Shown here: positions 8,282 through 9,765 of the stretch, piece by piece
How the letters are laid out: every line of letters begins with the position of its first letter
Numbering within the stretch: the first letter of the stretch is position 1
From: Paludisphaera borealis
GTDB lineage: Bacteria > Planctomycetota > Planctomycetia > Isosphaerales > Isosphaeraceae
NCBI RefSeq assembly: GCF_001956985.1
Contig: NZ_CP019082.1
Span: forward strand, 2,480,001 to 2,544,000
Reading direction: 5' to 3'
Length of the DNA: 64,000 bases
Notes under the pieces: model-generated
Databases searched by the model: none
What the model was told of the DNA's origin: nothing
What the model saw: only the letters and a program-made list of their open reading frames with translations
Position numbers and translations under genes: made by a program

Positions 8282-8354
8282 GGGCAGATAGCTCAGTTGG
8301 TAGAGCAACGGACTGAAAATCCGTGTGTCGGGAGTTCAACTCTCCCTCTGCCCA
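8282..8354 (+). tRNA. tRNA-Phe (GAA), prophage integration site
   Basis: A 73-nt cloverleaf with acceptor GGGCAGA/TCTGCCC, anticodon loop CTGAAAA (anticodon GAA) and T-arm with GTTCAAC. The last 50 nt are also the start of the prophage attachment core, so the tRNA stays intact: the 5' part is chromosomal and the 3' part is shared. The antisense of its 3' half codes for the end of the phage integrase. Confidence 0.96.
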
Positions 8355-9765
8355 TTCCCTCTTTCCCCTGACTCTGGCCGACAGAAGCCGTCAAGTCCCG
8401 TATCTCACACGGCTTAGGCTTCTCGGCCGGCTGAACAAACAAGGCAGCCGTTGCGTCGGCGTCCGGCTCCTTGCGCCCCAAACCGTCCCCTGCGGTGGGC
8501 AGATAGTGGGCACGGGGATTGTTTACGGGTTGAACGTCCGTTCCCGTTGCGGCCAGAATGCTTGCTTGAGGGCGATCGGAATCCGATCGGAGCGAAGGCA
8601 GCGACAGGGCGGCCCGCTCCATGTCCACGGCTCGGGGCTTCGTATAGCGGTCGGTCAGCCCCGGCGTGCTGTGACGCATGATCCTCTGGGCGACGCGGGG
8701 CGACACCCCGGCGGCGTCGAGCAAGGTCGCGGTCTGACATCGGAGCGAGTGGAAGTCGAACACCAATCCCCCGCTGTCTCGATAGGGGATGCCAGCCCGC
8801 TCCAGGTCGCATTGGAGCATCGTCGCCCCCCGATCGTCTGTCAGCGGGAAGACGGGCTCGCCAGAGGCGACGAGGGCGACGAAGTGGCGAAGGTCGTCCG
8901 CAAGGTCGCGAGCGAGGGTCAACGTCGCGGCAGTGCCGTTCTTCGTGTAAGCGGCCTGGACGGTCACGGCGGCCGGATCGGCCGTCCAGTCGAAGGATTC
9001 CGGCGTGATGCTTTGGATCTCGCCGTATCTCAGGCCGGTGGCGATCGCCAGCCGATAGAGCAACGCTCGACTCGGGCCGGACATCTTCCGCCAAGTGGGG
9101 CCGTTGTGGGCGGCCTCGATGAGTCGCCGTAGGTCGTCGACCCCGATGGTTCGCCGATCGTGGCGACGGTCTTCTTTCGCGTTGTAACCGGTCAGCCCGG
9201 TGAGCGGGTCGGATGCGAAACGGCCGGACTTCCAAGCCCATTTGGTGAACGATCGGATGGCGGTCTTGTGATGGTTGACCGATCCGAGCGACATCCCTTC
9301 TGAGCGGAGCGTAGCCAGGGCGGATTGAACACGGTCGGTCGTTAGGCATGCGAGACGACCCGTGGCCAGCCAGTCGGCCAGCTTCGCTTCGTGGATGGGG
9401 ATCTCGCATCGCTTCGCCTTGCGAGGGCGTTCGACTTCGGACGGGGCCGCGCCAAGGGAGATCGCAATCAGGACGCGGACGCGGTTCGCGGATAATGCGA
9501 CGTGCTGGGCCGTCGATCCTTTCGCCTCCAGGGACGCGGCCCAAGCCGCGACGTGTTCGGCGATCGGGCGAGCCGCATGTTCCCGCCGAGCCAAGTCGCG
9601 GACGTCGACCAAGCCTGACCGGATCTTCGCCGCCTCGGACTCGGCTGCATTCGCCATTTCCTGGGTGGCTCGCTTGTCGGCGCAGCCTTTGCGCTCGACC
9701 TTGAGGCCCTCGGCGTCGACGAATCGATAGTACCAGGACTTCCCCCGCTTACGCAGACTGGCCAC
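8293..9765 (-). CDS. int: Tyrosine recombinase (phage integrase), 3' end exchanged by integration
   Basis: 490 residues in the integrated state. Residues about 1-180 are the arm- and core-binding part; the catalytic domain shows R246 (TGLRYGEI), K275, the HxxR box H339/R342 (FHSLRC), H365 and the nucleophile Y374 (LTDRYT). The catalytic set is complete. The last 20 residues (GRGRVELPTHGFSVRC...) are the antisense of tRNA-Phe: the stop codon lies in the chromosomal D-arm of the tRNA. The native C-terminus is displaced to 38333-38548. The gene overlaps the excisionase by 17 bp. See findings. Confidence 0.95.
   Translation of the reverse strand: MASLRKRGKSWYYRFVDAEGLKVERKGCADKRATQEMANAAESEAAKIRSGLVDVRDLARREHAARPIAEHVAAWAASLEAKGSTAQHVALSANRVRVLIAISLGAAPSEVERPRKAKRCEIPIHEAKLADWLATGRLACLTTDRVQSALATLRSEGMSLGSVNHHKTAIRSFTKWAWKSGRFASDPLTGLTGYNAKEDRRHDRRTIGVDDLRRLIEAAHNGPTWRKMSGPSRALLYRLAIATGLRYGEIQSITPESFDWTADPAAVTVQAAYTKNGTAATLTLARDLADDLRHFVALVASGEPVFPLTDDRGATMLQCDLERAGIPYRDSGGLVFDFHSLRCQTATLLDAAGVSPRVAQRIMRHSTPGLTDRYTKPRAVDMERAALSLPSLRSDSDRPQASILAATGTDVQPVNNPRAHYLPTAGDGLGRKEPDADATAALFVQPAEKPKPCEIRDLTASVGQSQGKEGMGRGRVELPTHGFSVRCSTN
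8305..8359 (+). repeat. attL core, 55-bp direct repeat
   Basis: Identical to 38549-38603. It begins in the anticodon stem of tRNA-Phe and ends 5 bases past the tRNA. Flanks diverge at both edges. On the minus strand it encodes integrase residues about 470-487. Confidence 0.93.

Follow-up and report, generated by a model that had tools for sequence, protein, structure and literature searches.

The choice that a phage integrase makes between integration and excision is usually explained by excisionase and the occupancy of arm-type sites. Could the DNA that results from the reaction also alter the enzyme that carried it out? The question is raised by a stretch of the Paludisphaera borealis chromosome (64,000 nucleotides, positions 2,480,001 to 2,544,000 of NZ_CP019082.1; hereafter the window) in which a bacterial virus carries the site that joins it to the chromosome inside its own integrase gene, a feature shared by many mobile elements related to it in this group of bacteria. 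An earlier note on this DNA had proposed that the integrase gene has two coding states, one in the chromosome and one in the excised circle, and that these might amount to a switch of direction or of dose. Here we ask whether the arrangement exceeds chance, whether the exchanged end is maintained as protein, and what that end might do.

Integration exchanges the C-terminus of the integrase

The prophage spans positions 8305..38603 of the window and contains primase, terminase, portal, major head and tail-type genes; an IMG/VR record of 30,847 bp (L033) has the same integrase, with 100% identity over residues 1-487. The gene for this tyrosine integrase, int (8293..9765, minus strand), starts with GTG, encodes 490 aa in its integrated form and matches PF00589 at residues 209-377. 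Repeat comparison places a 55-bp core at 8305..8359, at the end of int, and at 38549..38603, at the far end of the prophage, with zero mismatches between the two copies in the window (55 of 55). When the core is extended by 14 further bases, two sites are found in the 7.65-Mb genome (E <= 0.001), both of them the window copies. The copy at the int end completes an intact tRNA-Phe(gaa) gene, the attB gene, on the plus strand at 8282..8354 (ARAGORN), so that int is read antisense to this tRNA, and the same copy supplies codons 469-487 of int. Only three residues follow, STN, and these are encoded by chromosomal tRNA-Phe bases. Repeat and reading frame together thus bear out what had been claimed for the integrated gene: a core within int, and a 490-aa product that ends three residues into host DNA.

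At the other end of the prophage the core is followed on the minus strand by 71 codons and a stop (38333..38548), in phase with int in the circle. Rejoining positions 9765-8360, the core and 38548 downwards on the minus strand yields a single open frame of 558 aa, the length that had been predicted for the excised circle; its stop codon ends at 38333 and its product ends in PPTP. There is no frame shift at the core in the window, and among the integrase/tail pairs considered below the one irregularity of this kind is the split core of a single element (G025).

Next to int, and overlapping its start by 17 nt, lies an ORF for a small, excisionase-like DNA-binding protein (9749..9967, minus strand; phrog_597, 4.5e-11; phrog_66, 2e-06). 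To the right of the second core, from 38604 to approximately 38750 on the minus strand, nucleotide matches reveal the C-terminal remnant of a second, older, related int gene, which aligns with the window int over 59 nt at 78% and 30 nt at 80%, and with the int of another genome (G002) over 44 nt at 89%. The better of the two pieces scores 49.1 bits against the window int, compared with 24.7 bits for the top of 50 shuffles. Given its position, this remnant points to an older element behind the present prophage at the same tRNA-Phe. Transposase-like ORFs, presumably IS630- and IS256-like, are found beyond the remnant at 38753-40647. Elsewhere in the host genome (G000:C1) there are further tails at 2573898, 6131306, 6394186 and 7488281, the first two of which pair with integrases at 2552 kb and 6203 kb, so that the host carries several such elements.

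The catalytic residues stay with the start of the gene

Tyrosine recombinases share a catalytic set of R, K, HxxR, H/W and Y. The window integrase matches PF00589 (Phage_integrase) with 48.8 bits, above the curated cut-off of 27.1, which identifies it as a tyrosine recombinase; at E <= 0.001 this is its sole Pfam match, and Phage_integr_3 (PF16795) is not matched in int. R246, K275, H339, R342, H365 and Y374, which we take to be the catalytic residues, are invariant in 17 alignment rows and all lie upstream of the core. Since the core follows Y374 and the tail is under selection (see below), integration strips a selected domain from the integrase while sparing its catalytic residues.

The same codon phase is kept on both sides of the core in relatives

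The joined protein finds matches in 72 of the 99 genomes searched, its own included. Among 29 relative loci fetched (L004-L032), the integrase ORF overruns an ARAGORN tRNA gene in 18, the tRNAs being Phe, Met, Lys, Arg, Leu, Ser, His and Sec, and seven of the remaining 11 (L007, L010, L012, L015, L017, L025, L029) have a core in common with a far end. Rfam, run on eight loci, gave two tRNA matches. Selenocysteine tRNA genes were seen at the core of L208/L152 (G073) and of L211/L212 and L028 (G082). Many integrase genes have a second copy of the core upstream, within stretches of up to 60 kb, and the joined reading ends in a similar motif. The far ends of the elements at G000:C1:42509 and G035:C17 were not found in the stretches fetched, and some integrase genes lie close to contig ends, for example in G018, G021, G030:C40, G020 and G006.

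We then compared codon phase on the two sides of the core for 36 integrase ORFs and 36 tails, the window included. Note that these pairs were picked by eye and are not exhaustive: 19 come from the first stretches and 17 from the list of tails with an integrase on the same contig and strand, and no pair was discarded for its frame. A core of at least 13 bp is common to both sides in 35 of the 36 pairs, the exception being G013:C6, and the distance between cores in these 35 ranges from 6 to 74 kb. Judged by the longest repeat, the two sides agree in phase in 34 of 35 pairs (33 of 34 when the window is set aside). In the remaining pair, G025, the core copies are distinguished by a 1-bp indel that throws one half out of frame at the join; read at the anticodon-side half, agreement becomes 35 of 35 (34 of 34 without the window). 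For G082 the phase was taken from the tRNA-like repeat rather than from a longer one, and both agree. In 34 of 35 pairs no stop interrupts the joined frame. The exception is G008:C272 (L044 9054), where an in-frame TGA lies between catalytic domain and core, and the frame beyond it is in phase with the tail.

The tails were collected in part with a profile HMM (33 columns) built from 16 seed tails, of which 15 had been found via the joined frame and one by blastp, so that the seeds may be biased toward an open joined frame. Pairs with tails outside the seed set, which the profile detected independently of the joined frame, are nonetheless in phase in 19 of 19 cases, where chance would predict one in three for each.

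Both orientations and three phases occur among the elements. Most have their int antisense to the tRNA, five have it in the sense direction (G037, G028, G016 and G013:C15 by ARAGORN, G019:C20 by eye), and the three elements at tRNA-Ser(gct) each have a phase of their own. On an integrase tree of 33 of the pairs, from which G035 C1 (a short ORF) and G186 (a core that is not tRNA-like) were left out, the best topology requires 14 changes of orientation/phase state, compared with a mean of 17.0 for shuffled labels. Support on this tree is uneven, and the well supported inner branches (11 of 30) force fewer changes, at least 6, 5, 3, 2 and 1 for five single states. Throughout, the tail is in the phase of its own integrase (33 of 33 tree members).

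The tail is conserved and under purifying selection

Across pairs the tails share the motif PDLAxVxxAWPxLPEAVRAGILAMVRA, which the tail profile locates in the window at 38360..38452 on the minus strand (VDLAEIADAWPKLDESTRTSILKLVHDNL; G000:C1:2518360-2518452). In further stretches, HMM matches at E <= 1e-11 all lie on the strand of that stretch's integrase. A tail profile of 22 rows detects matches in 141 of 248 genomes of the class (E <= 0.001) and in 97 of 392 genomes of a phylum sample that overlaps the class set. Most of the tail matches listed in the class scan sit in short ORFs; ten of those listed lie in ORFs of at least 276 aa, and one of these (L154) is joined to an integrase. In another genome (G064:C9, L153 2-1387, minus strand) the tail stands in frame at the end of a non-integrase ORF, presumably a class V aminotransferase, as if an element had joined a protein-coding gene. 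The family libraries provided no match for the tails: none in Pfam (three tails, E <= 1), in NCBIfam (two tails and the joined protein, E <= 0.1) or in PHROGs (one tail and the joined protein, E <= 0.1). Where the joined protein does match such libraries, the matches stop by residue 404.

Are the tails maintained as protein? Pairwise differences among 67 unique tails amount to 0.356, 0.239 and 0.576 at the three codon positions, with a pooled pS of 0.632 and a pN of 0.330. There is no such excess in the shifted frames (pS/pN 0.363/0.383 and 0.270/0.430). dN/dS is finite in 14 of the 15 closest tail pairs listed and ranges from 0.07 to 0.50; note that these values come from tails other than that of the window, which is absent from those pairs. 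From these sequence comparisons we conclude that the tails are under purifying selection as protein. The geometry is thus beyond chance, in that the in-phase arrangement recurs in other pairs sharing a core and the synonymous excess vanishes in shifted frames. Nor do homologous integrases all end near residue 490, since a conserved, in-phase and selected tail lies beyond the core. One candidate for the nature of the tail, an ssrA-like degradation tag, was rejected because -AA terminates one of 35 tails (that of G186).

The interval between core and motif is without ATG or GTG in 22 of 35 tails, and without a start bearing an SD-like box in 31 of 35. With start codons this rare, the selected product is most likely the joined protein, and the tail would then act joined to Int, in the circle or at a tandem junction, where one element's int adjoins the neighbouring element's tail. 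The distance from core to motif is 27-42 codons in antisense-type elements and G186, and 60-75 in the five sense-type elements, a regular spacing that depends on orientation.

Sets of phage and plasmid sequences returned no match when searched by tblastn with int and one tail. Scans of viral contigs recovered four loci with the integrase profile and four with the tail profile, among the latter this prophage and L241; the protein of the joined ORF described next (L220) had no match there, and no ORF joining integrase and tail was found in six viral loci scanned with both profiles (L034-L036, L240-L242).

A natural joined form, its predicted structure and arm-like repeats

Contig 66 of one genome (G192) carries a single ORF of 656 aa (L220) that comprises integrase, antisense tRNA core and tail. 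On contig 59 of the same genome a 49-bp stretch with the same core lies at an intact tRNA-Asp, under the end of a second, tailless int. The 13.2-kb contig 66 shows no exact terminal overlap of 16 bp or more, and the joined ORF may belong either to a free circle or to a tandem junction.

An AlphaFold model of this ORF from its Met (612 aa, 50 alignment rows) has a mean pLDDT of 81.6. Residues 485-579, a stretch that covers the core, fall below 50, and two helices follow in the tail (582-594 and 597-610) with block means of 61-78, that is, at moderate confidence. The homologue's model thus predicts the tail to be a helical hairpin behind a disordered linker that contains the core. An attP placed in a linker apparently tolerant of any sequence would explain why the elements use such varied tRNAs, strands and phases.

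Doubled repeats reminiscent of arm-type sites were read by eye on the plus strand both inside int (8494..8513, GGTGGGCAGATAGTGGGCAC) and inside the tail part (38474..38492, GGTGGGCAAATGGTGGGCA). Relatives likewise have repeats common to both sides, for example TTGCCCACCATTTGCCCAC in G002. We regard these doubled repeats as candidate arm-type sites. The repeats on either side differ in codon phase in G022 and G222 and are therefore kept as DNA rather than as protein.

Two loci do not fit the general pattern. In L225 (G154:C265:16515-18609) integrase, core and tail are contiguous and out of frame; a tandem junction might account for this, comparable to that in G016: there the integrase has its own in-phase tail 6 kb away, and behind its core stands a second tail of a different phase. 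The core of L225 is tRNA-Leu-like by eye. On viral contig L241 (8552-10132) int terminates ahead of the core; beyond its end come stop codons and, by eye, a hairpin, then the tRNA-like core and finally the tail ORF.

Discussion

Two coding states of int, set by the state of its DNA, are supported by the geometry, by the conserved phase and by selection on the tail, as the earlier note had anticipated. What might they be for? The explanation that we favour, and which we consider somewhat more probable than all others together, is that attP is nested in the linker of int, that Int bears the tail in the circle and lacks it once integrated, and that the tail aids integration, its loss biasing Int towards excision. 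The core, and probably the arm sites, would lie within a part of int coding for the long disordered linker that connects the catalytic domain to a conserved hairpin of helices at the C-terminus. In the circle the gene would be whole and Int would carry its tail. Crossover at the tRNA would then move the tail part to the far end of the element and join int to host bases, leaving a gene for tailless Int that retains its start, its excisionase-like neighbour and its catalytic residues. If both forms of the protein are made, the tail might help integration by assisting the assembly of the complex or by recruiting a partner, and its loss might leave Int biased to excision: a direction switch written in the state of the DNA. 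That the tail acts in the circle and helps integration seems to us most likely, and with it the direction switch; what speaks for a dose switch is the geometry by itself.

Imagine, conversely, that the tail limits Int in the circle, through instability or autoinhibition, so that integration frees a stable or more active enzyme. Such a model shares its geometric logic with the release of the repressor in BPs-like mycobacteriophages, as described in the accessible part of PMC9262239, and would suit a C-terminal hairpin predicted to sit on a flexible tether. However, the tails have no common ssrA-like ending, what integration removes is a conserved motif and not a short tag, and a tag that hinders integration should be easily lost; we think this model unlikely. 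Slightly less likely still, in our estimation, is that the tail serves the circle in some way other than recombination direction, for example in replication or partition. Selection on the joined form leaves the selected activity unspecified and is compatible with such a task, yet tails occur in elements that vary widely in size (6-74 kb between cores), which speaks for a task that the integrases have in common.

Models in which the tail does not act as part of Int fare worse. The tail could be an independent small gene of the integrated element, as the 88-aa prophage ORF that starts in the core and encloses it (38333-38599) might suggest, but most tails have neither ATG nor GTG between core and motif (22 of 35) and nearly all lack an SD-boxed start there (31 of 35), and we reject this account as highly improbable. 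It is a shade more improbable that there is no function at all, attP overlapping the end of int by chance and the frame being open by chance or constrained as DNA by arm sites. The arm-like repeats do look like a real constraint on DNA, as their disagreement in codon phase between sides in G022 and G222 attests. Against this stand the 34 to 35 of 35 pairs in phase, the several changes of phase on the tree and the clear synonymous excess in the tails; phase agreement, tail selection and state changes on the tree lead us to reject a chance open frame.

If tail-bearing Int indeed favours integration, the recombination product would rewrite its own enzyme and so add a second layer of direction control, and self-interrupting integrases would extend to bacteria in a milder form. 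Keeping in mind that the int-attP-tail architecture was found in one class of Planctomycetota and tails across the phylum, we put forward a broader proposal with rather less than even confidence: that bacteria have a widespread class of integrases whose attP is nested in the gene, flanked by the catalytic domain on one side and by a previously undescribed effector hairpin on the other. The state of the DNA would then encode the direction of the reaction: tail-bearing Int would integrate, tailless Int (with Xis) would excise, and tandem neighbours would lend each other tails. For annotation, integrase ORFs taken from integrated copies end in tRNA or host letters and miss their true C-terminus, and a tail can serve to locate the far end of such elements.

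Comparison with known systems

The literature searched, with most subscription journals outside it and some sources available in part, offers no account of a bacterial integrase gene in which attP separates the catalytic domain from a conserved tail; the accessible parts of PMC12662186, PMC10428622 and PMC5882170 contain nothing to the point. Helper-embedded PICIs (HE-PICIs) have an attP with co-oriented doubled motifs on both sides of its centre, according to the available text of PMC10111431, in which the strings 'within the integrase' and 'C-termin' are absent. The window resembles them in having co-oriented doubled motifs that flank the centre of attP; the motif sequence differs.

Closer parallels exist. 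In the archaeal SSV-type (type I, suicidal) integrases of SSV1, pTN3 and pT26-2 the integrase gene contains the att site and is split on integration, and a 2021 review, seen in part, called such disruption of an integrase's own gene exclusively archaeal (PMC8371274). There the catalytic part is cut from the N-terminal part, the pieces being described as inactive, and the Phage_integr_3 domain is named for these enzymes (PMC8371274). The window integrase likewise has its att site inside the gene. Unlike the archaeal enzymes, it loses a C-terminal tail while the catalytic part stays with the start, its host is a bacterium and it is without PF16795; absence of that match and a core placed after the catalytic residues lead us to reject membership of the SSV type. 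In the integration-dependent immunity of mycobacteriophage BPs and its relatives, as far as the accessible part of PMC9262239 describes it, attP lies in the repressor gene, integration removes an ssrA-like tag, arm-type sites are described as dispensable and there is no evident directionality factor. Both that system and the window place attP in coding sequence at a tRNA site and deprive a phage protein of its C-terminal end. In the window, however, attP is in int rather than in the repressor, the lost end is a conserved motif that terminates in PPTP rather than in a -LAA-like tag, and the element carries an excisionase-like ORF together with arm-like repeats. Of the systems compared, the archaeal suicidal integrases and the integration-dependent immunity of mycobacteriophages come nearest: the principle is common to both, and the system in the window belongs to neither.
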